From NCBI RefSeq assembly GCF_014138265.1, contig NZ_JACGXL010000008.1:124001-188000 (forward strand): a DNA stretch of 64,000 bases, in the 5' to 3' direction. The notes beneath the pieces were generated by a model. It did not search any database and was not told the DNA's origin. It saw only the letters and a list, made by a program, of their open reading frames with translations. This stretch comes from Dokdonella fugitiva (GTDB lineage: Bacteria > Pseudomonadota > Gammaproteobacteria > Xanthomonadales > Rhodanobacteraceae). Both the position numbers and the translations under genes were made by a program. Positions 5,067-23,757 of this stretch are shown here, piece by piece. Positions within the stretch are counted from its first letter, which is position 1; the number at the start of each line of letters is the position of its first letter.

Positions 5067-6508
5067 TCCGCACGTGCATCACCACGATCGTCGCCTTGTC
5101 GTGCGCAGGCTCGGCCTGGGCCGGCCAGGCGCCGCTGGCATCGTCGGCGAAGGATGTCACCGTCAGTGCGCACGACCGCGTCTACGCGGCCGAGCAGTTC
5201 TCCAACACGGTGTCGGTCATCGACCCGAGCACGAACCGGACGCTCGGCGCGATCCGGCTCGGCGATCCCGCGCCGGGCAACCTGAGTCCGTTGTATCGCG
5301 GTCAGCTGCTCGTGCACGGGATGGGCTTCTCGCCCGACGCGAAGACGCTCGCGGTCGTCTCGATCGGCAGCAATTCGGTGACCTTCATCGACACCGCCAG
5401 CAACGCCGTCAAGCACACCACCTACGTCGGCCGCTCGCCGCACGAAGTGTTCTTCACGCCGGACGGTACGGAAGCGTGGGTCACGGTGCGCGGCGAGGAC
5501 TACATCAGCGTGATCGATCCGGCGACATTCGAGGAGCGCCGGCGCATCACGGTACCGAACGGTCCCGGCATGCAGATCTTCTCGCCCGACGGCAAGTACG
5601 GCTACGTGTGCTCGTCGTTCACGCCCGAAACGGTCGTCGTCGAGGTGAAGTCGCACGCGATCGTCGGTCGCGTGAAGCAGGAGAGTCCGTTCTGCCCCGA
5701 TCTCGCGGCGACGCCCGACGGCAAGCAGGTGTGGTTCACGCTCAAGGACGTCGGCAAGGTGCAGGTGTTCGACGCACGACCGCCGTTCGCGCCGCTCCGC
5801 ACGATCGACACCGGGCCGATCACCAACCACGTCAACTTCGCCGTGACGCCGAAAGGTTCGTTCGCGTACGTGACCATCGGCGGCCTGAACCAGATCAAGG
5901 TGTTCAGGACCGACGACTTCTCGCAGGTCGCGACGATCGCGGTCGGTGCATTGCCGCACGGTATCTGGCCGTCCGGCGACGGCACGCGCATGTACGTCGG
6001 CCTCGAGAACGCGGACGCGGTCGCCGCGATCGACACCGCGACCCAGGCCGTCGTCGCGACGATTCCCGCGGGCCAGGCGGCCCAGGCGCTCGTCTACGTG
6101 CCGAACGCGGTGCCGGACGGCGACGGCCTGCAGAACCTCGTGCCGCCGAAGAGCATCGCGTCGGGTGTACACATCGCGCTGTCCGCGCCGGGCGAAAAGA
6201 CCGCGACGACCTCGGTCGCGCTGTTCGACCAGGGCCTGATCCAGGTGCTGCAGGCCGCGGTCACGGGGCTCAAGCCGAAGCAGCCGTACACGCTCGCGCT
6301 CAGCACGCAGCGCGAACGCGCCGACGCCCTGCAACCGCTCGCGCACTTCACGACCAACCCCGCGGGTGCGGCCGTCGTCAACATGCTCGGCCCGATCCGC
6401 CAGGTCGTGAAGGCGGACGCGGCGCCGTCGCGCCGTTACCTCGTGATCGTCGCGGGCGACGCGGCGAGTGCGGGCGAGCTCGTGCAGATCCAGCAGGCCG
6501 ATCGCTGA
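5063..6508 (+). CDS. YncE-like beta-propeller protein
   Basis: A 481-residue exported protein. A signal peptide (TTIVALSCAGSAWA) is followed by repeated blades of the YVTN/YncE type, such as SNTVSVIDPSTNRTLGAI, GSNSVTFIDTASNAV, EDYISVIDPATFEERRRI and NADAVAAIDTATQAVVATI. The C-terminal ~120 residues (from about VPDGDGLQNL) are a separate all-beta domain. Such proteins act as periplasmic binding or scaffold proteins. The start at 5063 is fixed by AGGAGGA at 5051-5057 and by the ATGA overlap with DUF305; a longer in-frame ORF from 4694 is an overlap artefact. Confidence 0.88.
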   Translation: MIRTCITTIVALSCAGSAWAGQAPLASSAKDVTVSAHDRVYAAEQFSNTVSVIDPSTNRTLGAIRLGDPAPGNLSPLYRGQLLVHGMGFSPDAKTLAVVSIGSNSVTFIDTASNAVKHTTYVGRSPHEVFFTPDGTEAWVTVRGEDYISVIDPATFEERRRITVPNGPGMQIFSPDGKYGYVCSSFTPETVVVEVKSHAIVGRVKQESPFCPDLAATPDGKQVWFTLKDVGKVQVFDARPPFAPLRTIDTGPITNHVNFAVTPKGSFAYVTIGGLNQIKVFRTDDFSQVATIAVGALPHGIWPSGDGTRMYVGLENADAVAAIDTATQAVVATIPAGQAAQALVYVPNAVPDGDGLQNLVPPKSIASGVHIALSAPGEKTATTSVALFDQGLIQVLQAAVTGLKPKQPYTLALSTQRERADALQPLAHFTTNPAGAAVVNMLGPIRQVVKADAAPSRRYLVIVAGDAASAGELVQIQQADR

Positions 6509-6588
6509 CGCCAGTTGCACCGATCGCGGCGCGGTGTGTCGAAGGTGGAGCGGCGGCACGCGCCTTGCGCGTACCTGTGAAGCCGAAG

Positions 6589-6668
6589 AGCATCGCGGCT
6601 TCCGCCGCTCCCACAGAAAGCGTGCACGCGCATGCGGCTGTCGTGGGAGCGGCGGGAGCCGCGATGCT
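6589..6668. repeat. Inverted pair of GTGGGAGCGGC-type palindromes
   Basis: AGCATCGCGGCTTCCGCCGC (start at 6589) and the facing GTGGGAGCGGCGGGAGCCGC (start at 6643) form a hairpin between the beta-propeller gene and the AraC gene. No coding potential is evident. Confidence 0.6.
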
Positions 6669-6713
6669 CTCCCTCCCCATCGATGCAACCATGCGATGTG
6701 AGAGCATGCACCG

Positions 6714-7559
6714 ATGAGTGCCTTCCGCATCGACCCGCTCCTGCGCACCGACACCGTCGTCGTCTGGGACACCGTCTGCGACGGCAGCGGCGACCATGCG
6801 AGCGACGCGCCGTGGCGCGCGGCGCCGCACCTCGTGTTTCCGTACCGCGGCCTGTGGGTGCGCCACGACGGCGACGAACTCGCGGTCGCCGAAGCAGGGC
6901 AGGTGCTGCTGTCGAACGCGCACGTCGACTACCGCACGCACCATCCCGTGCAGGGCGGCGACGCGAGCCTCGTCGTGCAGGTCGAGGAAACGATGCTGCG
7001 CGAACTCGCGCCGCTCGCGCTGATGCGCGATGCCGAGGCGTTCGCGTTCGCCGAGCAGCGCCTGCGCCTCGACGCGCGCGCGTCCGCGCTCGTCGCGATG
7101 CTGCGCCACTCGTTGCGCGAGGCGATCGCCGAACCGCTCGAAGCGGAAAGCCTCGCGCTCACCCTCGTCACGCGCTCGCTCGGGCCGCGCACCGCGCACG
7201 TCGCCGGCTCCACCGCCGGCCGCCAGCGCCTCGCCGACCGCACCAAGCTCGTGCTCGCGAGCGACCTGTCGCGGCGCTGGACGCTCGCCGAGATCGCCGC
7301 GGAGATCGGCGTCTCGCCCGTGTACCTCACGCAGGTGTTCCAGCAGGTCGAAGGCCTGCCGCTGTACCGCTACCAGCTGCGCCTGCGCCTCGCGCGCGCC
7401 CTCGATCGCATCGGCGACGTCGACGACCTCGCGCGCCTCGGCCTCGAACTCGGCTTCTCCAGCCACAGCCATTTCAGCGCCGCGTTCCAGCAGGCCTATG
7501 GGCGATCACCGTCGGAATTCCGCGAAGCGGTGATCGCGCGCAGGCAGCGCAAGGACTGA
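6714..7559 (+). CDS. AraC-family transcriptional regulator
   Basis: A 281-residue regulator with an N-terminal sensing region of about 170 residues (cupin-like, PHLVFPYRGLWVRHDGDE and LSNAHVDYRTHHPVQGG) and a C-terminal AraC domain. The first recognition region reads WTLAEIAAEIGVSPVYLTQVFQ and the second LARLGLELGFSSHSHFSAAFQQAYGRSPSEFR. The arrangement is that of effector-responsive AraC activators of unknown ligand. It is monocistronic, preceded by a REP pair and followed by the triplicated repeat block. Confidence 0.9.
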   Translation: MSAFRIDPLLRTDTVVVWDTVCDGSGDHASDAPWRAAPHLVFPYRGLWVRHDGDELAVAEAGQVLLSNAHVDYRTHHPVQGGDASLVVQVEETMLRELAPLALMRDAEAFAFAEQRLRLDARASALVAMLRHSLREAIAEPLEAESLALTLVTRSLGPRTAHVAGSTAGRQRLADRTKLVLASDLSRRWTLAEIAAEIGVSPVYLTQVFQQVEGLPLYRYQLRLRLARALDRIGDVDDLARLGLELGFSSHSHFSAAFQQAYGRSPSEFREAVIARRQRKD

Positions 7560-7567
7560 TCCGCGAC

Positions 7568-8310
7568 GTAGGGGGCCTGGCCCACCGCAGTGCATTTCCG
7601 CACGTTGCGCAGGGCGAGTTGCTGCGCATTCACCTCTCCCGCGAGCGGGAGAGGTCGCGCCGCAGGCGCGGGTGAGGGGAATCGGAGCGAGGCTTCGACG
7701 CGCGTGCAATGCTGCGCTCCGCATTCCCTCACCCCAACCCTCTCCCGCAAGCGGGAGAGGGGGAATACGCGGGCGGGTTTGCGCCCGGCGTCACGCGCGA
7801 ACTGCGTAGGGAGGACCCTGGCCCACCGCTGTGCATTCCGCACGCCGTGCATTTGCGCACGTTGCGCAGGGCGGGCTGCTGCGCATTCACCTCTCCCGCG
7901 AGCGGGAGAGGTCGCGCCGCAGGCGCGGGTGAGGGGAATCGGAGCGAGGGCTTCGACGCGCGTGCAATGCTGCGCTCCGCATTCCCTCACCCCAACCCTC
8001 TCCCGCACGCGGGAGAGGGGAAATGCCCGGCGCGGGTCGCGCCCGGCGTTGCGCGCGAACTACGTAGGGAGGGCCCTGGCCCACCGCTGTGCATTTGCGC
8101 ACGCCGTGCATTTGCGCACGTTGCGCAGGGCGGGCTGCTGCGCATTCACCTCTCCCGCGAGCGGGAGAGGTCGCGCCGTAGGCGCGGGTGAGGGGAAACG
8201 GAGCGAGGGCATCGACGCGCGTGCAATGCCGCGCTCCGCATTCCCTCACCCCGACCCTCTCCCGCAAGCGGGAAAGGGGACCACCTGGCGCGCGCAGGTT
8301 TGCGCAAGAC
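7568..8310. repeat. Three tandem copies of a composite ~250-bp repeat
   Basis: Units begin with GTAGGGnGGnCCTGGCCCAC at 7568, 7806 and 8064. Each contains in the same order a GTGCATT..GCACGTTGCGCAGGGC stretch, a CTCTCCCGC..GCGGGAGAG hairpin, the CGCGCCGCAGGCGCG hairpin, a GACGCGCGTGCAATGC segment and a second CCCTCTCCCGC hairpin. Spacings are 238 and 258 bp. This fills the 875-bp gap between the AraC gene and the 49-aa gene; no gene is supported here. The open frames through it arise from the repeat itself. Confidence 0.8.
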
Positions 8311-13189: not shown

Positions 13190-13657
13190 CTACGCGGCTT
13201 GCGCCTCCGTCGATCGCGCCTTCTTGGCGAAGCGCGACCCGAGCGACGCACGCAGACCCTCCAGGCTCTGGTTGCGACCCGACACCTTGAGCAGAGCATA
13301 CCCCTGCAGCGCCGTCGACATGATGTCGCTACCCAGCGCCACCTCCGTATCCGAAGCCCGCGCCGACAACCGCGCCAGGCGCTGCAGGCGCGGACGCAGC
13401 GCATCCAAGGTCGCAAGATCCAGCTCCGCCTCCGGCAAGCCGAGACCCGGATTCACCACCTGCGGGTTCTGCCCCAGCAGCGACAACGTCTGCCGGCAAA
13501 ACGCCTCGGACTTGTCGCCCATCCGCGGCACCGTGCGACGCTGCTGCGGACTCAGCGACACCATCCCCGCGAGGTTGCTTTCCAGCGCCGCCAGCGCCGC
13601 ATCCACGGCGGCGATCTGGTCGGAGGTGAGGTTCATCGAAACGAGGTTCTGCGTCAT
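13190..13657 (-). CDS. Conserved hypothetical protein, 155 aa
   Basis: A soluble helical protein of 155 residues starting MTQNLVSMNLTSDQIAAVD. It includes GMVSLSPQQRRTVPRMGDKSEAFCRQT and ends with a long helical segment (LRPRLQRLARLSARASDTEVALGSDIM). I recognise this as a recurrent bacterial hypothetical family without an assigned function. There are no membrane segments or signal peptide. GGGAGAGAG precedes the ATG at 13655-13657, and a strong terminator follows. It marks the left edge of the defence island on the same strand, but its GC-rich codon use is that of the core genome. Confidence 0.75.
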   Translation of the reverse strand: MTQNLVSMNLTSDQIAAVDAALAALESNLAGMVSLSPQQRRTVPRMGDKSEAFCRQTLSLLGQNPQVVNPGLGLPEAELDLATLDALRPRLQRLARLSARASDTEVALGSDIMSTALQGYALLKVSGRNQSLEGLRASLGSRFAKKARSTEAQAA

Positions 13658-13784
13658 AGCTACTCTCTCCCAGTTCCAAGGGTGATCCCGTCCAGGCCCC
13701 GATGGCTCGGGCGGGGTGCCTTGCGGCACGGGAGGGATTGGAACAGGGGGTGATCTCAAATCCTGCGACGTAACGCGAACATGG

Positions 13785-14270
13785 TCAGCCGAGGTCCGAA
13801 TCTTCCTTGACCGTGGGGTCCTGCAGCCATCGATCGATCAGCTGCCAAGATATCCCCGCGCGATCGTTCAGAACGGAAATCGTGTCCGTCATTGTCAGCT
13901 TTTCCCAATCCTTGGGGTTCGTGACCAGATCGGCGTAGTGGCCCAGTACTTCGATCTTCCGAAAATGCCGGAACCAGGCGCCAATCGCCGCTTCGGGCTC
14001 CCTGACGTAATTATACTCGCCCACAACCCGCACGAGCGCGGTCGGATGGTGATGGGCAATGATCAGAACGATGTCGCCGATGGCCATCTCGTGCGCAAAG
14101 TCCCAGTAGTCCCTTTGGTCCTGCGGGATGCTCTCGCGGCTGACGTCCGTGAGGTCGCCCGGTGGATTCTCGAAGTCGAGCCCGATGTAACCCAGCCCGA
14201 GGGACAACATCGCATGTTTCACCGATCGAGCACTGTCCGCTGGGTGAAGCTGCATTCGCCAATATCTCAT
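13785..14270 (-). CDS. PUA/EVE-like small protein downstream of a DUF262 nuclease
   Basis: A 161-residue protein opening MRYWRMQLHP. Its core pattern is FAHEMAIGDIVLIIAHHHPTA, then VRVVGEYNYV, then WFRHFRKIEVLGHYA. This order (GD-hydrophobic strand, V-x-G-x-Y, then HFRKIEVL) resembles PUA-like/EVE domains that read modified bases and are often fused to or encoded beside modification-dependent nucleases. The assignment rests on pattern only. It starts 13 bp after the DUF262 gene, with GGGAGGGAG as ribosome site, so the two are co-transcribed and likely partners. It ends the six-gene restriction operon. Base composition is lower in GC than in the flanking genes. Confidence 0.65.
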   Translation of the reverse strand: MRYWRMQLHPADSARSVKHAMLSLGLGYIGLDFENPPGDLTDVSRESIPQDQRDYWDFAHEMAIGDIVLIIAHHHPTALVRVVGEYNYVREPEAAIGAWFRHFRKIEVLGHYADLVTNPKDWEKLTMTDTISVLNDRAGISWQLIDRWLQDPTVKEDSDLG

Positions 14271-14283
14271 CGCTCCCTCCCGC

Positions 14284-15996
14284 TCATTGGCCGTGTGTGC
14301 CTACTTCGACGAACTGGTTCAGTCTGTCGGCGACTCGCTTGCGACGCTCGCGAAGAAACTCTCTGTATGAGGAGATCCTCAGCAGATCATGGTCGGTCGG
14401 GATGCATTGGGCGTCGAATGCGCTCTGCCCTGCGTTCTGCACGAAGGCTTGCAAGTATTGATCGGGTGACTTGTCGCTGATCTGTCGGTTCGTCTTTCCG
14501 GAGATGAACGACAGATTGGCGATGTCATCCGCGTCACGCGCACTGTAGTCCGCTGCCTTGAGCACGGCTTTCGGAAATATGTGATGGAACTGCAGTCGAT
14601 GGCTGGTCCCCCAATGATCCAGCGAGATGCGGAGATTCGATCGCCAGTCCTTGGCTCCAGCATCGTTGAAGGCGAGGAACATCGTCTTGAAGATGGCGCT
14701 GCGTTGATTGCGACCTTCCAGTTCCTCGGGCGTCACATCGAGGCGGCCGACCTGAAGACGCAGTCGCTCGATCATCTCGGACACGCCGCCCTTCTGGCGA
14801 AGCGAAGCGAGATCCTGATCCAGCAGTGTTTCGCTGGAGCCGCGCGAGAAACGGCCCTTCAGATTCGACACTAACGTCCAGAAGCGGAGCTTGGCTGCTT
14901 CTTCGGGCGTGAGGTTGTAGTCCCGCTTGGCGCCGAAGAAGGCGAGGGCGATGAGGATGAAGGGCGACGACAACAGCGCTGGGCTGGTGATACCCACATT
15001 GCTGCGAATGAAGTTCAATGCGAACTCCATACCTCGGACGCTGTCGATCCACGCGGCCTGCAGGGTCGCTAGTGACAGCCCCGCTACGGTCTGGAATCGC
15101 GACTGACCTGTGGCGAATGCCACGAGATTCTTCAGGTGGATGCCAAGGTCGAGATCGAAGCCTTTGTCGGCACACGCCTTCTGAAAGGCAAGGAACGTCG
15201 CCAAAGAGTTGCGCCACTTGGCAGTAATCTGTGCCAAGGCCAAGTCCGAGCTTCTCAGCTTCGCTCCGAGAGAATTGACACGAACGAATATCTCGGTGAC
15301 CTCGTCATAGCCGAGCGTCCGCTCGAGCACGTCCATTCGATAGACATACCGACGTACGCCACGAAGGCGGGCCAAGCGAGCGCTGTACTTCTCAAGCCTC
15401 GGGTCATCCATGCTGCTGACGCCGGCGGCCTTGAGCAGCGCCGTATCGCCTTGGCTCTTGAACACGTCGGAAACGCGCACCCAGTTCGGCAGAAGCTCCA
15501 GCTTCTTGGTCGCAACGACGAAAGCTCGCTTGTTCAGACGAGCCATCAGTTCATCCTCGCTGGCATCCTCCTCGCCTTGCTCGGGCGCATCGTCGTCGAT
15601 GTCCGCCTCTTCGTCGACTTCCGTCACGAAGGCCAGTTCGTCCGGGTGCTCCAGATTGAAGAGAAGATCGATGGGCTTCTTGCGGTGGCGCACCTTTACG
15701 GGTTCGCCGCGAATCACGGCTGACAGGGAGGTGAGTCGTTGTTGGCCATCGAGAAGTAACCGAGTCGTCTGATATGGACTCGCTTGCTGAGAGACGCCGA
15801 ATTCGCGCAATGGCACAGCTTCATCGGTTTCCCATAGCAGAATCGCGCCGGAGGGATATCCGCGATAGAGCGAGTCGATGAGATCTCGGACGCGAGTCGA
15901 TTGCCACACGTATTGACGCTGCATTTCGGGCAGGCGCAACTCGCCGCGTTCGATCATTCCCACGAGCTCTTCGACCGTAGCTTCTGCTTTCGCCAT
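14284..15996 (-). CDS. DUF262/HNH nuclease (GmrSD/SspE-like)
   Basis: A 570-residue protein. The N-terminal DUF262 (ParB-like NTPase/nicking) domain carries the hallmark DGQQR at residues 83-87 and FVRVNSLGAKLRSSDLALA further on. An acidic linker (about 125-150) separates parts of this domain. The C-terminus has an HNH-type site, LQFHHIFPKA with His471-His472 and Asn494. This order is that of GmrSD, BrxU and SspE enzymes, which restrict phage DNA carrying modified bases or act with phosphorothioation systems. It starts 32 bp after hsdR in the same operon, and a PUA/EVE-like gene follows. I infer a second DNA-modification-sensing restriction activity added to a type I system. Confidence 0.85.
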   Translation of the reverse strand: MAKAEATVEELVGMIERGELRLPEMQRQYVWQSTRVRDLIDSLYRGYPSGAILLWETDEAVPLREFGVSQQASPYQTTRLLLDGQQRLTSLSAVIRGEPVKVRHRKKPIDLLFNLEHPDELAFVTEVDEEADIDDDAPEQGEEDASEDELMARLNKRAFVVATKKLELLPNWVRVSDVFKSQGDTALLKAAGVSSMDDPRLEKYSARLARLRGVRRYVYRMDVLERTLGYDEVTEIFVRVNSLGAKLRSSDLALAQITAKWRNSLATFLAFQKACADKGFDLDLGIHLKNLVAFATGQSRFQTVAGLSLATLQAAWIDSVRGMEFALNFIRSNVGITSPALLSSPFILIALAFFGAKRDYNLTPEEAAKLRFWTLVSNLKGRFSRGSSETLLDQDLASLRQKGGVSEMIERLRLQVGRLDVTPEELEGRNQRSAIFKTMFLAFNDAGAKDWRSNLRISLDHWGTSHRLQFHHIFPKAVLKAADYSARDADDIANLSFISGKTNRQISDKSPDQYLQAFVQNAGQSAFDAQCIPTDHDLLRISSYREFLRERRKRVADRLNQFVEVGTHGQ

Positions 15997-16028
15997 TCTT
16001 CTCTCCCCTGATGCGACGTATCGGTTGC

Positions 16029-19000
16029 CTAAGCCGCGCGTTCGTTGATGCCGGAAAGGATGGCGACGATGGCGTCGGCATCACCATCAGCGAATGCGCC
16101 GTCCAGCCCCTCATGATGGACTGTAGTGAACGGGGGCTCGTACAGTTGGCCCGCTTCCATCGTTCCGTGCCGCGTCAGGCGCTCGATGATCATTTCGACG
16201 AACCGGATCTGGCGGCTGGTGTATCGGTTCTTGTCGAGGAACTGGCCGAAGGCTTCCTTCGCCGCTCCCCTGTCGAGACCGACCAACGATCGGATGAAGC
16301 GCGCCAGCGGCTGACCGGACCCGAAGCACTGTTCGAACCGTTCGCGGCTTTCGACCGGCTCGGATTCGTATACGAAGCGCTCCAGTTCGCGCAGGTCGGT
16401 CGGCGTCAGCGGGCGGTTGTGTCGCAGCTTGGCTATGGCGATGTGGTGCTCGTTGGCACGGATGAAGGCCTCGACCTTGCGCCGGTACTGCGCCAGGTTG
16501 ATGCCCGTGCTGAAGTCGAGCAACTGCACCTCGGTGGAGGAGCCAATCTCATCCCTGAGGACGGAATAGACGGGTGCAAAGGACCTGCGCTCGATGAACT
16601 GGATCAGCCCGCGAAGCTTGCGGCGCGCCGATTCGATCATCGGCAAGGTGATGTCTTTCCAGAACGCCTCGGTCTGAAGCTCCGCGATCAGCGGAAGTTG
16701 CGCCTTGATCGCCGGGATGGTTTCGTGGGCTTCCAGGCCGGCGGCCAGTTCGATGACCTTGTCGCGGTAGGTCATGAAGTCGCGCGTGGCCTTGACCAGT
16801 GCAAGCTGCAGGTTCAGGCAAATGAGATCGAACAGCTTGGCCGTGATGTGCTCGGGATCCTGCTGACTCGGCAGCCCGGCGACATGATCCCTGAGCTCCA
16901 CGAACGCCGTCTCGTCGAGTGAATTCCATTGCTTCCTGTCGGCAAAGCGGACGACGTGCTCGCGTTCGGTGCGCACGATGAAGTTGTCGAGATGCATCGC
17001 CGACACTTCCGCGTGCAGTTGCGCGATGAGGTCTCCCCGCAGGCCTTCGGCGCGGGTGTAGCCGGCGCCCTTCTCGGACGTGCCATCTTTGCGGTCGCCG
17101 CGCGACGGTCGGAGCAGGGCCAGCAGCTCCAATCGTCGCTTGAACAACCGTTTGCCCAACGGTTCGCTGAGGGGCGACACCGCGCCAGCCGGGTTCTCGT
17201 TGAAGTATTCAAAGTTGCCGCAGAAGTCGAAGATGTAGAACTCTTTCTTGTCCTCACCCGGGCCGAACAGGTCCGGGCACAGGCGCGTGCCTCGCCCGAT
17301 CATCTGCAGAAACTTGACCTTCGAGCGCACGGACTTGAAGAAGACCAGGTTCACCACTTCGGGAACGTCGATGCCGGTGTCCAGCATGTCCACCGAGATC
17401 GCGATCTGCGGCAGCCTGGCCACCACGCTGAAATCGTCGATCAGGGTCTGTCCGTACTTCACCGCGTGGGTGATGACGCGGGCGAATTCGCCCTTCAGGT
17501 GCGGATAGTGATGATCGAAACGCCGGGCGATGAACTCGGCGTGCTTCTGGTTGACCGCGAAGATGATGGTCTTGCCCAGCTTGTCGCCGCCTTCGACCTT
17601 CAGCCCGTGCCCCATCAGGTGCTGGAGCATCAGGTCGACGGTGCTCTCGTTGAACAGCTGTTTGTTGACCTCGGAGGCGTGCACCTCGTCGGGCGGCTCG
17701 CCGCCCTCGTCGCGGTCGCCCCAGTCCAGCGATTCCCAGTGCTCCTGTTCTTCCGGCGGCAGGTCGTCATACCTGATGCCCTCGCGCACGAACTTGATCG
17801 GCACCGAATGCGCCCTCGGGGGCACCAGGTGACCGTCGGCCACGGCCTCGTCCAGCCCATAGGCATCGGTGGGCACGCCGGTTTCCAGGCCGAACAGGTG
17901 GTAAGTGTCGCGGTCCACCTCGTCGCGCGGGGTGGCGGTCAGCCCGACCAGGTAGCTGTCGAAGTAGCGGAAGATCGCGCCGTACTTCTGATACACGCTG
18001 CGATGCGCTTCGTCGATGATGATGAGGTCGAAGTGGCCGACACCGTTCCTGCGGCGTGCGCCCTCCATCTCCTCGATCAGGCCCATCATCGTCGGGTAGG
18101 TGGACAGGTACACGCGGCCCTGTCCGTCCTTGTCCGCAACCAGGTTGACCGGGCTGGAGTCCGGTAGATGCGCCTTGAAAGCGTTGGTCGCTTGTTTCAC
18201 CAGTGCTACGCGATCGGCGAGGAACAGCACGCGCTTGACCCAGTTGGCGCGCATCAGCAGTTCGACCAGCGCGATCGACATGCGGGTCTTGCCGGTGCCG
18301 GTGGCCATGGTCAGCAGGCCGGCGCGGCGGCCCTGCGCCAATGACTCGGCCATCGCACGAATGGCGCGGTGCTGGTAGGCGCGCTCCACGATCGCATTGT
18401 TGATCTTCAGCGCGCGCGGGTCCGTCTGCAGCTGGCGGCGCTGGATCGCGAGTTCCAATTCCTCACGGCTGTAGAAGCCCTGCACCTCGCGCGGCGGCGC
18501 GCGGCGGTCGTCCCACAGCCAGGTCTTGTGGCCGTTGGTGCAGAAGATCAGCGGCCGCTGGCCCTTCATCTTTTCCAGGCAATCGGCGTAGAGCTTCGCC
18601 TGCTGCCGACCCACGTCCGGGTCGCTGAAGCTGCGCTTGGCCTCGACCACCGCCAACGGCTTGCCGTCCGCGCCCCACAGCACGTAGTCGACGAAGCCCT
18701 CGCCCGGTCCGTTGGGCATGCCGGTGACTGGCACCTCGATGGCCGCGTTCTCGCCGATGACCCAGCCGGCCTCGCGCAGCAGTACGTCGATGTAGAAACG
18801 ACGGGTGTCGGCCTCGTCGTAGTCATGCGTGTCAGGCACGACGATGTTGGCGGCCTTGGCCTGCGCGAGTTCGGCGCGTAATGCCGCCAGCTGTGCGTTG
18901 ACCTGCGCCAGCGCAGCCTCGCGGTCCGCCAGCGTGGCATTGGCCTCGGCGATGGACGCCTCGCGCGCCTCGATCTTGGCATGCTGCGCCTCGATCTCAT

Positions 19001-19499
19001 GGCGGAACTTGGTTTCCTGCTTCTTCAACTCGTCGCGCGTGAAGCCGACCGCCTCATCTGCGCGCACGAGATGTGGCACGCGTTTGTCGTTCCACTCGGC
19101 GCTGAGGCTCTTGGGATCGCTGGCGCGGGTGTAGGTGCGCGCCAGCCAGAACAGCACGTGGAACAGCTCGCGCACCAGCCGCAAGGCGTCCCCGCTGCCG
19201 ATGCGCTGGTTGGAATGCACCGCCTGGTTGCCCAGCTTCTGGATCAGCCGCGCCTTCTGTTGGATATGCGGCGGCAGTAGGCGCTCGAACGCGGGCTGGG
19301 TCAGGAGCACACCCAGGCCGGTGTCGTACGGCATCCGCAGGTCGCGGTCGTTCTCGTACAGCCAGTGCACCGCCTGCTCCAGCGCATGGCGGGTGCGCAT
19401 GCAGCAGGCACGTGGATCGGAATGGACCAGTTGCTCCGCACCTTTCGCCGGCTCGTAGAGCGGTTTGAATTCGGATTGGAGGAACTGGAAGTTGCTCAT
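16029..19499 (-). CDS. hsdR: Type I restriction enzyme R subunit HsdR
   Basis: A 1156-residue motor/nuclease subunit. It has an N-terminal DUF4145-like region (1-130), a coiled coil (about 153-218), a PD-(D/E)XK nuclease (Asp271, then VVEAK with Glu286 and Lys288), Walker A ATGTGKT (399-405), DEAH (496-499), helicase C motifs (QMIGRGTRL) and an EcoEI-type C-terminal domain. HsdR translocates and cleaves DNA that the HsdMS complex finds unmethylated. The ATG at 19497-19499 was chosen over one 12 codons upstream because AAAGGAG is correctly spaced and the upstream gene stops just before. All catalytic motifs look intact. Confidence 0.93.
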   Translation of the reverse strand: MSNFQFLQSEFKPLYEPAKGAEQLVHSDPRACCMRTRHALEQAVHWLYENDRDLRMPYDTGLGVLLTQPAFERLLPPHIQQKARLIQKLGNQAVHSNQRIGSGDALRLVRELFHVLFWLARTYTRASDPKSLSAEWNDKRVPHLVRADEAVGFTRDELKKQETKFRHEIEAQHAKIEAREASIAEANATLADREAALAQVNAQLAALRAELAQAKAANIVVPDTHDYDEADTRRFYIDVLLREAGWVIGENAAIEVPVTGMPNGPGEGFVDYVLWGADGKPLAVVEAKRSFSDPDVGRQQAKLYADCLEKMKGQRPLIFCTNGHKTWLWDDRRAPPREVQGFYSREELELAIQRRQLQTDPRALKINNAIVERAYQHRAIRAMAESLAQGRRAGLLTMATGTGKTRMSIALVELLMRANWVKRVLFLADRVALVKQATNAFKAHLPDSSPVNLVADKDGQGRVYLSTYPTMMGLIEEMEGARRRNGVGHFDLIIIDEAHRSVYQKYGAIFRYFDSYLVGLTATPRDEVDRDTYHLFGLETGVPTDAYGLDEAVADGHLVPPRAHSVPIKFVREGIRYDDLPPEEQEHWESLDWGDRDEGGEPPDEVHASEVNKQLFNESTVDLMLQHLMGHGLKVEGGDKLGKTIIFAVNQKHAEFIARRFDHHYPHLKGEFARVITHAVKYGQTLIDDFSVVARLPQIAISVDMLDTGIDVPEVVNLVFFKSVRSKVKFLQMIGRGTRLCPDLFGPGEDKKEFYIFDFCGNFEYFNENPAGAVSPLSEPLGKRLFKRRLELLALLRPSRGDRKDGTSEKGAGYTRAEGLRGDLIAQLHAEVSAMHLDNFIVRTEREHVVRFADRKQWNSLDETAFVELRDHVAGLPSQQDPEHITAKLFDLICLNLQLALVKATRDFMTYRDKVIELAAGLEAHETIPAIKAQLPLIAELQTEAFWKDITLPMIESARRKLRGLIQFIERRSFAPVYSVLRDEIGSSTEVQLLDFSTGINLAQYRRKVEAFIRANEHHIAIAKLRHNRPLTPTDLRELERFVYESEPVESRERFEQCFGSGQPLARFIRSLVGLDRGAAKEAFGQFLDKNRYTSRQIRFVEMIIERLTRHGTMEAGQLYEPPFTTVHHEGLDGAFADGDADAIVAILSGINERAA

Positions 19500-19506
19500 A
19501 GTGTCG

Positions 19507-20343
19507 TCACTCCTTTCCACCCCAATAGACGGCACCAGAATCGAAGTTATCCCTGAGATAAGGCGTAAATCCGGTCAGCACGACAGACAACGCAATCAAA
19601 TCCTTCATGCCTATCGATCTAAGTGCCCCCTTCGGACTCCCAGCATGCCTGATACCAGGGTAATCCGAAGCGAACCCGTATAGATTAGAAAGTGAGTTGC
19701 GCAAAGCACTGTGCGGCCAACTCTTAAGCTCCCCGCAAATTGCACCCAATTGCCTACTCCGAACGCCCGCACAGGTAGCACCAAACGCCTCCAATAAGTT
19801 CATTTGCTTCTGAATGATTGTTTTAATGCGCCCATCCGAGGTGTCATCGCGCAGATCGCGCAATGCCTCATCGAACTCATTGAGCAGCGAAGACAAATGA
19901 TCGTCACCTTCAGATGCTTTCTGAATATCACTTGCGAGCGCGGAAAAGATCCCAGGAAGCGTGGGGCAGAGCACGCAAGGGGCACGTAACTTATAGCGAA
20001 GGCTGTACTTTTCAATAAACTTGGTCAGCAGCAGCACATAAAACTCAGCAATCGCCTCACCAGCCAAGTCACCGACAATGAAGTGTGCCTCCTCAAAGAA
20101 CTCCACGAGCCGACGCTCAGACGCCAAGTCTGTTGGAGCTATCGCCTTGAAAGCCTCACGGCTCTGATCCTGATCGTCGACGATATCCGCCAACTGTTCG
20201 AGCGTAGGCGCTACTAGTAGGGCTTCAGAAAGTTGGCGGTAAAGCTCACAGAAGATGTCGACTGGAATCCCTTCGCTCGAGATTAGCGGCTCCCATATCG
20301 ACGCCCACGATTCAGGCCATACAGCGATCAATTCGCCGCGCAT
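19507..20343 (-). CDS. Unknown protein embedded between hsdS and hsdR
   Basis: A 278-residue soluble, mostly helical protein. Its C-terminal portion, with SNLYGFASDYPGIRHAGSP followed by a helix (MKDLIALSVVLTGFTPYL), recalls the C-terminal helical domains of abortive-infection proteins with HEPN-like folds, but a canonical Rx4-6H motif is not clear. A Cys pair (CVLC) occurs mid-protein. The start overlaps the end of hsdS by 16 bp and its stop lies seven bases before hsdR, so it is part of the operon. Codon use is markedly richer in A and T than elsewhere. It may be an accessory anti-phage effector comparable in position to PrrC; function unproven. Confidence 0.75.
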   Translation of the reverse strand: MRGELIAVWPESWASIWEPLISSEGIPVDIFCELYRQLSEALLVAPTLEQLADIVDDQDQSREAFKAIAPTDLASERRLVEFFEEAHFIVGDLAGEAIAEFYVLLLTKFIEKYSLRYKLRAPCVLCPTLPGIFSALASDIQKASEGDDHLSSLLNEFDEALRDLRDDTSDGRIKTIIQKQMNLLEAFGATCAGVRSRQLGAICGELKSWPHSALRNSLSNLYGFASDYPGIRHAGSPKGALRSIGMKDLIALSVVLTGFTPYLRDNFDSGAVYWGGKE

Positions 20344-21488
20344 GACTGTCCCTCGGAGATAAAGAACTTCTGCTGGAGAGATAAAAACAGTTGCTCTAGT
20401 TGGGCTTCCTGCCTAGCGGAAGCATTGCATTGCCGCGCAATTGCTGCGGCCATACGACCAAATGCTTCCTGATCGCCCTTCGCTGGAGCCATGATTGCCA
20501 GCTTCTCAAACTTTCCCTTGTTCAATATTGGAAGGGTTGTGGATGCACCTTGATGAGCGATTTCGTCACCCAAGAAACGCATTGCATGGTAGCCGTACAC
20601 CGGGTCAACTTGATCGTGCCACGTGACGGAATTTATCTGCTGGTTGAATGCGCTCTCCCTCGTCACGAGCCCCATCTTTCCGATTGTTGCGCCGATGCAG
20701 CATACGAGAGTGCTTCCGGCCGCTGCGATTCGGCTCAAGAGTGCGCCATCCGAGGTCACAGTCCGCCGGGATTCCGCGACCACTCCACCAAGATCTCCAG
20801 GCGTAACAAAGGGTATCGGACCGTCGAATACGCCGGCTGCAGAAGAAGGCGGAGTTCCACCCGTCTGAACCTTTGCCAATTCGCTCAGCGGCTTTTGTGG
20901 CCATCCTTTGGGATTTCTAGCTGGGTCACCAAACATCTCGACAAATACGGATTGCAGCAACTCATCGAGTTTGGCGATGACCTCGCGGCGCTTGGCGCGC
21001 AGCGCGTCGGCACTGTCAAGAATTGCCGCAATATGGCGCTGCCCTTGCACGGGAGGCATTGGTACCTGGATCTCGCGGAAATCGTCCTTTGTCAAAACCC
21101 TTCGACGGCTGACCGCGCCGCGCATGCGCGCTTGGTATGCGCTGATCGCTTGAGGCGAACGCAAATATCGCTCTAGATAACTGATATCAACTCGATCCGG
21201 ATCCAGTATGCGCCAAACATCGTATGCCGGACTTACTGCGGCCCCTGGGTACCTCCTCTGGAATCCCAGGACCCCCTCATCAATCGGAAATCCAACGACC
21301 AACTCATTGAAGGCGACGTACTTGTATCCAGATATCTCGCTACTTGCGATTCTCTTCTTGAATCGCTCCGCCTGATCTATCAATCCATCACGCATTGTGA
21401 TCGACATGATTGGGATGTCGCGCGCGCCAACTTTTTCACGCCCAGAAAGCTCGATGAGCTCCCCGAGCCGTACGGTCGGGACACTCAT
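20328..21488 (-). CDS. hsdS: Type I restriction specificity subunit HsdS
   Basis: A 386-residue DNA-recognition subunit with two target-recognition domains. The first is at about 5-175 and ends in the conserved helix region PMPPVQGQRHIAAILDSADALRAKRREVIAKLDELLQ region. The second begins around NPKGWPQKPLSELAKVQTGGTPP and ends with a shorter helical segment to the C-terminus. TGGTPPS and IPFVTPGDLG are typical of the second domain. It determines the bipartite target sequence for both methylation and cleavage. The ATG overlaps the last codon of hsdM (ATGA). A/T-rich codon use relative to flanks fits horizontal exchange of specificity domains. Confidence 0.92.
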   Translation of the reverse strand: MSVPTVRLGELIELSGREKVGARDIPIMSITMRDGLIDQAERFKKRIASSEISGYKYVAFNELVVGFPIDEGVLGFQRRYPGAAVSPAYDVWRILDPDRVDISYLERYLRSPQAISAYQARMRGAVSRRRVLTKDDFREIQVPMPPVQGQRHIAAILDSADALRAKRREVIAKLDELLQSVFVEMFGDPARNPKGWPQKPLSELAKVQTGGTPPSSAAGVFDGPIPFVTPGDLGGVVAESRRTVTSDGALLSRIAAAGSTLVCCIGATIGKMGLVTRESAFNQQINSVTWHDQVDPVYGYHAMRFLGDEIAHQGASTTLPILNKGKFEKLAIMAPAKGDQEAFGRMAAAIARQCNASARQEAQLEQLFLSLQQKFFISEGQSCAAN

Positions 21489-22992
21489 CGCAGCATCCCC
21501 TGCAACTCCTCCACACCCTGCATGATCTCGGCTTCGAGTACCTTCAGCGCTGCCAAGATCTTCTGCGGCGGGTCGTACTGCGTCGCCACATGCACTGCCT
21601 GCTTGTAGCGGTTGATCGACAGGTCGTAGTCGTTGCCGGCAATCTCGGCCTTGGGCACCAGGAAGCTCTGCTCGGTGCGGACGCGGTCCGCTTCCTTGCC
21701 GCGATGCTGCCAGCGCTGTCGGATGTCCGGAAGGTTGTTGTGCTCGTGCTTGGTCGCGTCCAGCGGGTTGCGCTTGTCGTCTAGCGAGTAGCCGTCGGCC
21801 TGCATGTCGTAGAACCAGACCTGGTCTGTGCCGCCGGAGTTGGTCTTAGTAACAGCAGGATGGCGGTGGACACGCCGGCATAAGGGCGGAACACGCCTGA
21901 GGGCATTGAGACGATGCCGTCTAGTTTGTGCTCCTCCACCAGCATACGGCGCAGGGTTTTGTGCGCGGTGCTGGAGCCGAACAGCACGCCGTCGGGCACG
22001 ATCACCGCGGCGCGGCCGCCGGGCTTGAGCAGACGCAGGAACAGGGCCAGGAACAGCAGCTCGGTCTTCCTGGTCTTGACCATCTGCTGCAGGTCCTTGG
22101 CTGTGCTCTCGTAGTCCAGCGAACCGGCGAACGGCGGATTGGCGAGAATCAGGCTGAACTGCCCTTCCACTCCGGCATGGCTCTGGCTCAGCGAGTCGCG
22201 GTTCTCAATGGCCGGGTTCTCCACGCCGTGCAGCAGCATGTTCATCGAGCCCACGCGCAGCATGGTGCTGTCGAAATCGAAGCCGTGGAAGGTGTCGTGG
22301 TTGAAGCGCTTCGCCGCCTTCTTGTCGGCGTAGATCTCCTGCTGGTGGTGCTGGTGCAGGTACTCGCTGGCGGCGACGAGGAAGCCGGCGGTGCCGCAGG
22401 CCGGATCGCAGATGGTGTCGGACGGCTTGGGCGCCATCATCTCGACCATCAGCTTGATGATGTGGCGCGGGGTGCGGAACTGGCCGTTCTGCCCGGCAGA
22501 GGCGATCTTGCCGAGCATGTACTCGTACAGGTCGCCCTTGGTGTCGCGGTCCTCCATCGGTATGGCGTCGAGCATGTCCACCACCTTGGCCAGCAGCGCC
22601 GGCGTGGGGATGGTGAAGCGCGCGTCCTTCATGTGACCGGCGTACGTGGATTCGTCCTTGCCGAGATCCTTGATGAAGGGGAAGACCTTGTTGGCCACCA
22701 CGTCGTACATGGCGGCTGCGTCTCCCATCTGCTTGAAGACGTGCCAGCGCAGCTTCTGCTGCTTGCTGTTGAAGATCGGATTTTCGATGGGTTTCCCGGT
22801 GCGGGCGGCCTTCTTCTCCTCGCGAGTCTGGATCTCGTCAAGGCGCTTGATGAAAAGCAAGTAGGTCATCTGCTCGATGACTTCCATCGGGTTGGAGATG
22901 CCGCCGCTCCAGAAGGCGTTCCAGATGGCGTCGACCTGGCTCTTGATGCTGCCTGTAATCACGATTCGTCCGTCGTTCGCTGAGCGATGCAT
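21485..22992 (-). pseudogene. hsdM: Type I methyltransferase subunit HsdM, split by a frameshift
   Basis: The N-terminal ~400 codons encode an N6-adenine methyltransferase: an N-terminal helical domain (AIWNAFWSGGISNPMEVIEQ), motif I DPACGTAGF and the catalytic NPPF (LANPPFAGSL). At about 21851 the frame ends in a wrong tail after STAILLL. The next frame continues correctly with TKTNSGGTDQVWFYDMQADG to the stop at 21485, which overlaps hsdS. One missing base in the CTGCTGTTACTAAG stretch explains it. The tail lost by the upstream frame holds the C-terminal HsdM helices. Either a true inactivating mutation or a sequencing error. The start is 22992 ATG, or a GTG at 22962 that gives the common VITG..SQVD start. 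Confidence 0.85.
21838..21858 (-). other. Frameshift site in hsdM
   Basis: Reading the minus strand, CTGCTGTTACTAAGACC lacks one base compared with the expected CTG-CTG-TTn-ACT-AAG-ACC. The frames to either side of this point are both conserved HsdM protein sequence. Confidence 0.75.
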
Positions 22993-23115
22993 GATGATAT
23001 CGGCGAGGCTCCGGCTTTGCGAAGGCGGCCCTCGCGGGCGGCGCTGCAGCGCACCAGGCGTGACGTGGCGGGTATGCGCTACGCTCGGGGAACATCTCCA
23101 GCGTGCATTCGACAC

Positions 23116-23757
23116 ATGCATGGTCGCTATGTCGTAGAAGGACCCGAAGGCGCGTTCGAGCCCGGATCTCGTGGGCGTGTGCTGGCCAATCTTCGGCGAA
23201 TCGTGCGCGTGCGCGACATGCAGCGAGCCGAGTCCGATGCGCTGCTGGCCCTGATGGATGCCTTGATCGAAGAGGTCAGCGAGGCGCAGCGGTTCACGAC
23301 GCCGGACCTATGCCGATGGCATCGCCAATGGTTGGCGCCGATCTATGGTTGGGCGGGAGCGTATCGCGAAGTCAACATGGCCAAGGCGGGCTTTCCGTTC
23401 GCAGCAGCGAACCGCATTTCGGATCTGATGGCCGGGTTTGAGTGGGATGTTCTTCGTGTCCACACGCCGTGCCGCGATATGGACACGGATCGACTGGTGA
23501 CAGCACTCGCGATGACGCACGCGGAGTTCATCTTGATCCATCCCTTTCGAGAAGGAAATGGCCGCTTGGCGCGTGTCATGAACACGCTGATGGGGCTGCA
23601 GGCCGGTTTGCCCGCGCTGGACTATGGCGGCATTCGCGGTGTCGCGAAGCGTCGCTACATCGCCGCCATTCACGCGGCCATGGACAGAGACTACGAGCCG
23701 CTCGAGGCCGTATTCCGATCCGTGATCAAGCGGACTTTGAAGGGCGTGAGCGCTTGA
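23116..23757 (+). CDS. Fic-domain AMP-transferase-like protein
   Basis: A 213-residue Fic protein with a complete active-site motif, HPFREGNGRLAR at 142-153 (consensus HxFx[DE]GNGRxxR), including the catalytic His142. A beta-hairpin flap segment (YREVNMAKAGFPFAAANRI) precedes it. Fic enzymes transfer AMP or other phospho-groups to target proteins such as gyrase. No inhibitory [ST]xxxE[GN] motif is found within the protein, which argues for a separate antitoxin (class I). The gene is divergent from hsdM with a 123-bp shared upstream region. An earlier ATG at 23074 could add 14 residues. Confidence 0.88.
   Translation: MHGRYVVEGPEGAFEPGSRGRVLANLRRIVRVRDMQRAESDALLALMDALIEEVSEAQRFTTPDLCRWHRQWLAPIYGWAGAYREVNMAKAGFPFAAANRISDLMAGFEWDVLRVHTPCRDMDTDRLVTALAMTHAEFILIHPFREGNGRLARVMNTLMGLQAGLPALDYGGIRGVAKRRYIAAIHAAMDRDYEPLEAVFRSVIKRTLKGVSA

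Follow-up and report, generated by a model that had tools for sequence, protein, structure and literature searches.

A putative exchangeable restriction island of Dokdonella fugitiva with a predicted BrxU-like nuclease and a protein of a rare, unnamed family

Organization of the locus

In the genome of Dokdonella fugitiva (assembly GCF_014138265.1), a stretch of 64,000 nucleotides of contig NZ_JACGXL010000008.1 (positions 124,001 to 188,000, referred to here as the window) carries a block of six genes, all on the minus strand, that runs from position 22,992 down to 13,785. Their order is hsdM, hsdS, a gene for a protein of 278 amino acids (aa), hsdR, a gene for a 570-aa DUF262 protein and a gene for a 161-aa protein. 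Neighbouring genes overlap by 4 and 16 bp or lie 7, 32 and 13 bp apart, and strand, order and spacing are as the initial annotation of this DNA had given them. We consider it rather probable that the block is an exchangeable, horizontally gained restriction island in which a type IV nuclease resembling GmrSD and BrxU is embedded, with the 161-aa protein as an accessory. The activity and substrate of the nuclease, and any role of the 161-aa protein, are what we infer from these genes.

A predicted GmrSD-type nuclease

The 570-aa protein (14,284–15,996, minus strand) is predicted from its sequence to be a single-chain GmrSD-type nuclease. It carries the motif set of GmrSD DUF262 domains (QR at residue 26, DGQQR at 83 and FxxxN at 237–241) and matches Pfam GmrSD_N at 3e-28, and its HH at 471, with later Asn residues, is kept in close aligned relatives. 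The two residues singled out in the initial annotation are well placed, as Asp83 opens DGQQR and His471 opens HHIFPK. The best PADLOC model was HEC-05 (9.7e-48), aligning residues 3–564 of 570 to positions 23–594 of 600. The only PDB match at E up to 0.01 was 7p9k, a “DUF262 domain-containing protein” (2e-13, 53 bits; 7p9m has the same sequence), which we take to be BrxU.

In the genome samples this nuclease is uncommon. At a limit of E 1e-30 it was found in four of 61 relatives, and at a limit of E 1e-80 in two of 274 genomes of the class; both counts include the own genome. Among plasmids, 174 records hold some relative of it, two of them at 60–80% identity. Five scans of viral contigs returned no relative of either the DUF262 protein or the family of the 161-aa protein.

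Composition and exchange at the insertion site

The guanine-cytosine (GC) content of the block is 0.603, whereas the upstream side has 0.703 and the downstream side 0.705; the lowest value outside the block, in 9.3-kb stretches sampled every 200 bases, is 0.694. The visibly lower GC that the initial annotation had reported is therefore real. The lower codon use reported together with it holds for four genes, hsdS and the 278-aa gene (third-position GC 0.56–0.57) and the DUF262 and 161-aa genes (0.74 and 0.71, respectively), but not for hsdR and hsdM, whose 0.86–0.87 stands beside 0.81–0.93 in three flanking genes. Since third-position GC falls into these three classes, the block looks like a patchwork whose DUF262 and 161-aa genes, with an overall GC of 0.584 each, would share a common history. 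This shared composition and the 13-bp gap between the two genes fit their joint arrival in this genome.

The site itself is variable within the genus. In the nearest of 15 genus members by fadE protein (97%; G671), the flanks match those of the window at 90% on the left (787 bases) and 88% on the right (2,013 bases), and between them lies another, dissimilar type I system, which runs the other way in the order hsdR-hsdS-hsdM and is followed by a gene for a 757-aa DUF262 protein (GmrSD_N and SLFN_AlbA_2) and one for a 304-aa HNH_2 protein. The same site carries unlike type I and DUF262 cargo in two genomes of one genus. In four further genus members, from each of which 9.7–10.7 kb were fetched, the right flank alone matches.

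DUF262 genes in other loci

Ten other DUF262 loci, of 13.2–24.9 kb each, were compared with the window: three from the search of relatives (L022, L023 and L024), one from the same site (L074), one from the search of the class (L038), one from a search with the 278-aa protein (L031), and four plasmid records opened among the 60 listed of the 174 found (L027–L030). A type I operon surrounds the DUF262 gene in four of them (L023, L024, L031 and L074) and a type III operon in one (L028). The type I operons of L023, L024 and L031 hold more distant DUF262 proteins. On the Ruegeria TM1040 megaplasmid (L031, 9,265–18,443), where hsdM is 58%, hsdR 47% and the 278-aa homologue 35% like those of the window, the DUF262/DUF1524 protein belongs to another family (PADLOC Orf5, then HEC-06) and its gene is located before hsdR. 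With family and slot both different, this type I lineage seems to have gained DUF262 genes on more than one occasion.

The type III case lies on a Planctomycetes K2D plasmid (L028, 7,095–13,356), where the DUF262 gene, whose product is 63% identical to that of the window, is flanked by the mod and res genes of a type III system (PADLOC MTase_III 7.3e-189, REase_III 9.9e-281), the gaps being 19 and 33 bp, and stands downstream of genes for a DrmD-like helicase, a SIR2-like protein and HerA. Here a nuclease of the same subfamily is nested in a type III system. An Hma reading of this locus, drawn from its row of helicase, ATPase and methylase, was rejected, since PADLOC identifies a mod/res pair of type III together with HerA and a DrmD-like helicase. 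The remaining neighbourhoods are diverse: a 74% relative lies between a DUF489 gene and a HipA gene (L022), a 67% relative on a Rhizobium rhizogenes plasmid is near a His-Xaa-Ser cluster (L027), and a fragment that is 66% identical over the C-terminal half is near guaA (L038). DEAD/DEAH helicase genes adjoin the DUF262 gene in L029, and a gene annotated “restriction endonuclease” is 1.2 kb from it in L030.

The type I genes and the break in hsdM

HsdM, HsdR and HsdS are all encoded in one operon in the window, according to Pfam and PADLOC. The 386-aa HsdS (20,328–21,488, minus strand) has two specificity stretches, both matching Pfam Methylase_S (2.8e-16). HsdR (16,029–19,499, minus strand; 1,156 aa from the ATG at 19,499), identified by Pfam, PADLOC and motifs, has DUF4145 near the N-terminus, HSDR_N, a ResIII helicase and EcoEI_R_C, and its D...EAK, GTGKT and DEAH motifs are all present.

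The initial annotation treated hsdM as a single open gene and missed a break, for it is split into two open reading frames (ORFs) in different frames. The in-frame part (21,781–22,992, minus strand) holds the N-terminal and catalytic region, with Pfam HsdM_N and N6_Mtase, PADLOC MTase_I at 1.1e-154 and the motifs DPACGTAGF and NPPF; the mechanical ORF (21,781–23,121, 446 aa) includes an N-terminal overhang. Near 21,850, within the region 21,485–21,988, the frame is lost; a 106-aa ORF in another frame (21,485–21,805, minus strand) holds the final 100 or so residues and matches MTase_I positions 389–489 (E 2.5e-26). The division is drawn from two intact HsdM proteins, those of L031 (Ruegeria; 58.7% and 50.0% identity to the two parts) and L039 (a genome of the same class; 36.9% and 37.7%), which follow one frame of the window as far as about residue 390 or 403 and from there on the other, switching at the same place. 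An intact methyltransferase subunit of the type I system was thus not found in the window. A repeat-driven frame switch was considered and rejected, because the pattern used detected no homopolymer or short tandem repeat in 21,781–21,905; the change is therefore unlike a phase-variable switch. It would be either a real mutation or an assembly error, two alternatives that look the same in the sequence, and the present function of the type I part in this strain is doubtful.

The family of the 161-aa protein

The 161-aa protein (13,785–14,270, minus strand), with its YWxMQxHP start, matches no Pfam or NCBIfam family, and neither does the 278-aa protein. From the relatives found by sequence search it belongs to an unnamed, rare and scattered family. 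Among 274 genomes of the class, the family was found in the own genome and in one other (G070, 51% identity), a third match being false; among 398 genomes of the phylum it was found in the own genome only; and a wider profile run on 284 genomes again returned the own genome and G070, with a third, false match. The ten-member alignment, A3, keeps Y3, W4, M6, Q7, H9, P10, L24, G30, L31, F58, D66, A78, L79, W99, T128, I145 and W148. Phage records hold no relative of the 161-aa protein, and in PHROGs one of the ten members, not that of the window, matches the unannotated phrog_18282 (6e-4).

The surroundings of the family members vary widely. The gene stands upstream of a C5 cytosine methylase gene and vsr in a metagenome-assembled genome of Myxococcota (L002, 56% identity), beside pdxJ in G070 (L025/L016), and near ribbon-helix-helix and PIN genes on Leptospira interrogans plasmids (L014 and L036, 34–35%). 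Family proteins of about 144 aa occur on small plasmids (L035 and L040–L043). RelE/ParE or mobilisation genes are close to four of them, and the fifth, from Proteus, has its gene 66 bp from that of a type ISP restriction/modification enzyme. On the Arcobacter cloacae plasmid pACLO (L034), the first 160 residues of a 503-aa ATPase are a domain of the family; the ATPase matches PtuA (1.2e-68), and a PtuB-like protein (1e-36) is encoded after it. This PtuA/PtuB-like pair (6,001–8,240) is enclosed in a type I-B cas operon, with cas6 on one side and cas7 on the other. Searched with, the Arcobacter domain finds the small-plasmid proteins (36–41% identity over about 95 residues, E 5e-13 to 4e-12) and a Leptospira one (1e-4), and so ties the two halves of the family together. 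With the 161-aa protein of the window as query, an Arcobacter record appears at E up to 0.01.

Several candidates were set aside. Matches in Serratia (L003–L013) and at L017 cover 68–75 residues of ORFs of 290–318 aa, and all 12 loci were dropped as false because both of those scanned (L003 and L017) proved to be MPAB oxygenases. L102 was rejected since it is tilS. The PADLOC candidate PDC-S02 is too weak an assignment, its best model matching two of the ten members (best 5e-5) and the window protein at 0.002 over about 60 residues.

Recurrence of the gene pair

The initial annotation had read the last two genes as a two-protein, modification-sensing module and proposed looking for the pair elsewhere. 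Hidden Markov models were built from A3 and from nine DUF262 proteins and used in six-frame searches. No gene of the 161-aa family was detected in any of the ten other DUF262 loci, nor a DUF262 gene in any of nine distinct loci of the 161-aa family (2.4–20.4 kb each). The latter comprise L002 from genome contigs, L025 from genome samples and seven plasmid loci, namely Leptospira (L014 and L036 as one, H1/H90 being counted once) and, among 28 records, H103–H107 and H109; H108 of those records and H111 and H113 of a further search were left out. The sample is small and most of the small-plasmid stretches are short, but among its loci are those of the four nearest DUF262 relatives found and of the three nearest relatives found of the 161-aa protein. 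The pair does not recur in these loci, which, by the refuting condition that the initial annotation had set, counts against the module within this sample, and its standing as a conserved module finds no support.

A possible likeness to EVE domains

In the initial annotation the 161-aa protein was also called PUA/EVE-like, a claim that fares better, if weakly. An EVE profile, A4, was built from 12 of the 20 EVE loci found and compared with A3 by hhalign, giving a score of 31–32, E of about 2e-4 for a single comparison and a probability of 44–50%. The score of 31.2 exceeds the best of 200 column permutations (23.9), the reversed profile (14.1) and five other families (11.4–15.5). The probability falls to 9.8% with the four nearest members alone and to 2.2% with the six distant members alone. 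One run of the alignment starts from the first residues of both families (YWxM...P), and other runs span about residues 39–87. ASCH, one of these five other families, for which four short rows were used of the seven found, gave no signal. The 161-aa protein has no Pfam EVE match above the cut-off, and hmmsearch of PDB chains with the family alignments A1 or A3 returned no EVE chain and one weak, unrelated chain each. These profile comparisons are a real hint that the protein is EVE-like, not a demonstration.

EVE domain proteins (PF01878), as far as PMC7641849 describes them in the text available, share with the 161-aa protein a similar size, defence neighbourhoods and, in the profile alignment that starts from the first residues, the YWxM...P opening and an F..M..GD.V pattern. 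The 161-aa protein differs in having no Pfam match and in an alignment that stops at about residue 87. As for Septu, the N-terminus of the PtuA-like ATPase of Arcobacter is a domain of the same family, whereas the protein of the window is free-standing and encoded beside a DUF262 nuclease.

The 278-aa protein and the border genes

The 278-aa protein (19,507–20,343, minus strand) resembles the PADLOC candidate PDC-S32 (5.6e-9), which its homologues in L031 (35% identity) and L039 (32%) also match. It is rare: 369 genomes of the class yielded the own genome and one other (G164), plasmids yielded one record, and one scan of viral contigs yielded no relative. The gene stands directly after hsdS in all three loci (the window, L031 and L039), and a guard or regulator linked to the type I system would be its likeliest role. 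An origin in Abi_C was rejected on a score of 17.0 that one of 200 permutations equalled, a probability of 1% and the lack of a Pfam match.

A Fic/DOC gene (23,119–23,757, plus strand, with a provisional start; the ORF opens at 22,987; Pfam Fic 1.7e-15) is divergent from hsdM and within the low-GC block. It adjoins the type I genes of the window, and a Fic gene whose product is 46% identical lies within the type I and DUF262 operon of L023 (10,897–11,583).

The left border of the insert is formed by a gene for a 189-aa protein (13,190–13,759, minus strand) that is multi-copy in the genome by genome-wide matches, with eight matches in this genome, one of them with internal stops, and two in G671. 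None was found at E ≤ 1e-20 in 14 other genomes of the genus, and none in plasmids. Six of the eight copies in this genome border low-GC patches with mobile or defence-like genes. Besides the present island, these patches hold an AAA gene at L086, a DUF5131 gene at L089, a C5 methylase at L090, a HATPase/DUF4325 gene at L092 and, at L088, a tyrosine integrase with small ORFs behind it, an arrangement that looks integron-like. No such patch is obvious at L087 and L091. A 49% copy (L024, 431–1,114) is about 1 kb from the type I and DUF262 operon of L024. The 189-aa gene is a possible marker of variable sites.

Discussion

Type I genes are, among defence elements, the most frequent neighbours of GmrSD homologues, and RloF (R-linked) of Campylobacter is one case, as stated in the available part of the survey (PMC4619093). 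The tgvAB genes are nested in a type I cluster, both of their DUF262 proteins are needed, and they protect E. coli against Tevenvirinae even when the nuclease site of HsdR is mutated; the same source, as far as its text was available, equates HEC-05 with BrxU and notes HEC-05 and HEC-06 in Hma loci (PMC11411939). GrwAB is described, in the available text, as also acting on phages with 7-deazaguanine (PMC12137116), and rare EVE-GmrSD fusions and associations of EVE with type I systems have been reported (PMC7641849, available in part). The combination of a type I system with a modification-dependent DUF262 nuclease is thus already established, as is EVE near type I; the initial annotation, which had proposed that a DUF262/HNH enzyme beside type I genes would cover modified DNA, missed these precedents. 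Its proposal is plausible, being the published reading of TgvAB (PMC11411939, as described in the available text) and fitting the survey of GmrSD homologues (PMC4619093, likewise), but hsdM is now broken.

The likeness to these systems is partial in each case. As in TgvAB, judged from the available description, a GmrSD-type DUF262/nuclease gene lies within a type I cluster and the same complementary logic would apply. The arrangement differs in that the DUF262/HNH gene of the window follows hsdR and precedes the gene of an unrelated 161-aa protein, and in the broken hsdM. BrxU and HEC-05 share the single-chain layout of DUF262 and His-Me nuclease at about 570–590 aa, HEC-05 being the best PADLOC match, but the gene of the window lies in a type I island, not in a BREX or Hma locus, and its substrate is a prediction. 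RloF, from the type I loci of Campylobacter jejuni, is a DUF262 gene linked to hsd genes too; its slot is between hsdS and hsdR, according to the part of PMC4619093 available, while the gene of the window is downstream of hsdR.

The proposed mechanism joins two activities. The type I subunits (the now broken hsdM, hsdS and hsdR) would form, or would once have formed, the part that cuts unmethylated DNA. The DUF262 part of the 570-aa protein may bind and split nucleoside triphosphates and sense modified bases, and its His-Me/HNH part may cut modified DNA, so that phages hiding from HsdR by base modification would be attacked by the DUF262/HNH nuclease. The 161-aa protein would most likely be an accessory that this lineage acquired along with the nuclease; it might read bases or act as a regulator, and would not be an obligate partner.

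Four observations weigh against this reading. The GmrSD_C match is poor (0.014; 15.8 bits against the Pfam cut-off of 23). TgvAB, in its available description, needs two DUF262 proteins (PMC11411939), and the window has a single DUF262 gene with no second one adjacent. Half of the ten other DUF262 loci (L022, L027, L029, L030 and L038) are without a restriction-modification operon in the stretches examined. With hsdM broken, moreover, complementary action with the type I system may no longer exist in this genome. The last point could be taken further, to a decaying island in which hsdM has been lost and no part is now selected as a system, and the C-terminal DUF262 fragment of L038 indicates that such genes do decay. 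We hold such a relic to be unlikely, as the remaining five genes are open, the motifs searched for in HsdR and in the DUF262 protein are intact and the frame change in hsdM could be an assembly error.

How closely the 161-aa protein is bound to its neighbours is a separate matter. It might form one two-protein enzyme with the DUF262/HNH protein, the small partner reading a modified base and the large one cutting; the 13-bp gap and shared orientation, a GC content and third-position GC common to both genes and unlike those of hsdR, hsdM and hsdS, the profile similarity to EVE, the existence of two-protein GmrSD-like systems (PMC11411939 and PMC12137116, as far as available) and the rare EVE-GmrSD fusions (PMC7641849, available in part) would all agree with this. 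We nevertheless find such an enzyme improbable, given that the small gene is absent from all ten other DUF262 loci, including four relatives at 63–74% identity (one a fragment), and DUF262 from all nine other loci of the family. The same non-recurrence speaks for a 161-aa protein that is stand-alone cargo, with a small defence, toxin-antitoxin or plasmid-stability function of its own, and merely adjoins the nuclease; relatives that occur singly on plasmids, close to RelE/ParE or PIN toxin genes, or beside pdxJ, point the same way. This seems to us quite possible, if short of probable, since one relative forms a single protein with a PtuA-like ATPase whose neighbour is PtuB, another is encoded 66 bp from a type ISP enzyme and a third lies near a C5 methylase and vsr. 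A more far-reaching idea, which we offer as speculative, takes the DUF262/HNH gene here, the Septu-like ATPase of Arcobacter, the type ISP enzyme of Proteus and the C5 methylase and vsr of Myxococcota together: the 161-aa protein would found a family of EVE-like readers, recruited by unrelated defence nucleases as a detachable sensor, and would here widen or redirect the base range of the BrxU-like nuclease. For the 278-aa protein, the slot after hsdS in all three loci, before hsdR in the window, is reminiscent of the one that we assume PrrC to occupy, which would make it a guard by which blocking of the type I enzyme leads to death or arrest of the cell. PrrC is embedded within a type I locus in the available account of PMC12707154. 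A guard of the PrrC kind is quite unlikely, as there is no Pfam family, the Abi_C comparison is not significant, the gene in L039 closes an hsdR-hsdM-hsdS row, directly behind hsdS, and does not precede hsdR, and no similarity to PrrC surfaced in the Pfam and PADLOC scans, no search aimed at PrrC having been made.

We therefore return to the exchangeable island with an embedded nuclease and an accessory 161-aa protein, which provides a further, separately assembled instance in which a modification-dependent nuclease is nested together with a restriction-modification system. Because one site carries differing type I and DUF262 cargo in two genomes of the genus, and a close relative of the nuclease sits within a type III operon, the data suggest that the combination, rather than the particular genes, is favoured. 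The general layout is known from other loci; what is fresh and interesting here is the unnamed 161-aa family: neither a free-standing protein of this family beside a DUF262 nuclease nor its fusion to PtuA was found in the open-licence literature searched. If the family does read modified bases, a common sensor for several unlike defence nucleases would be explained.

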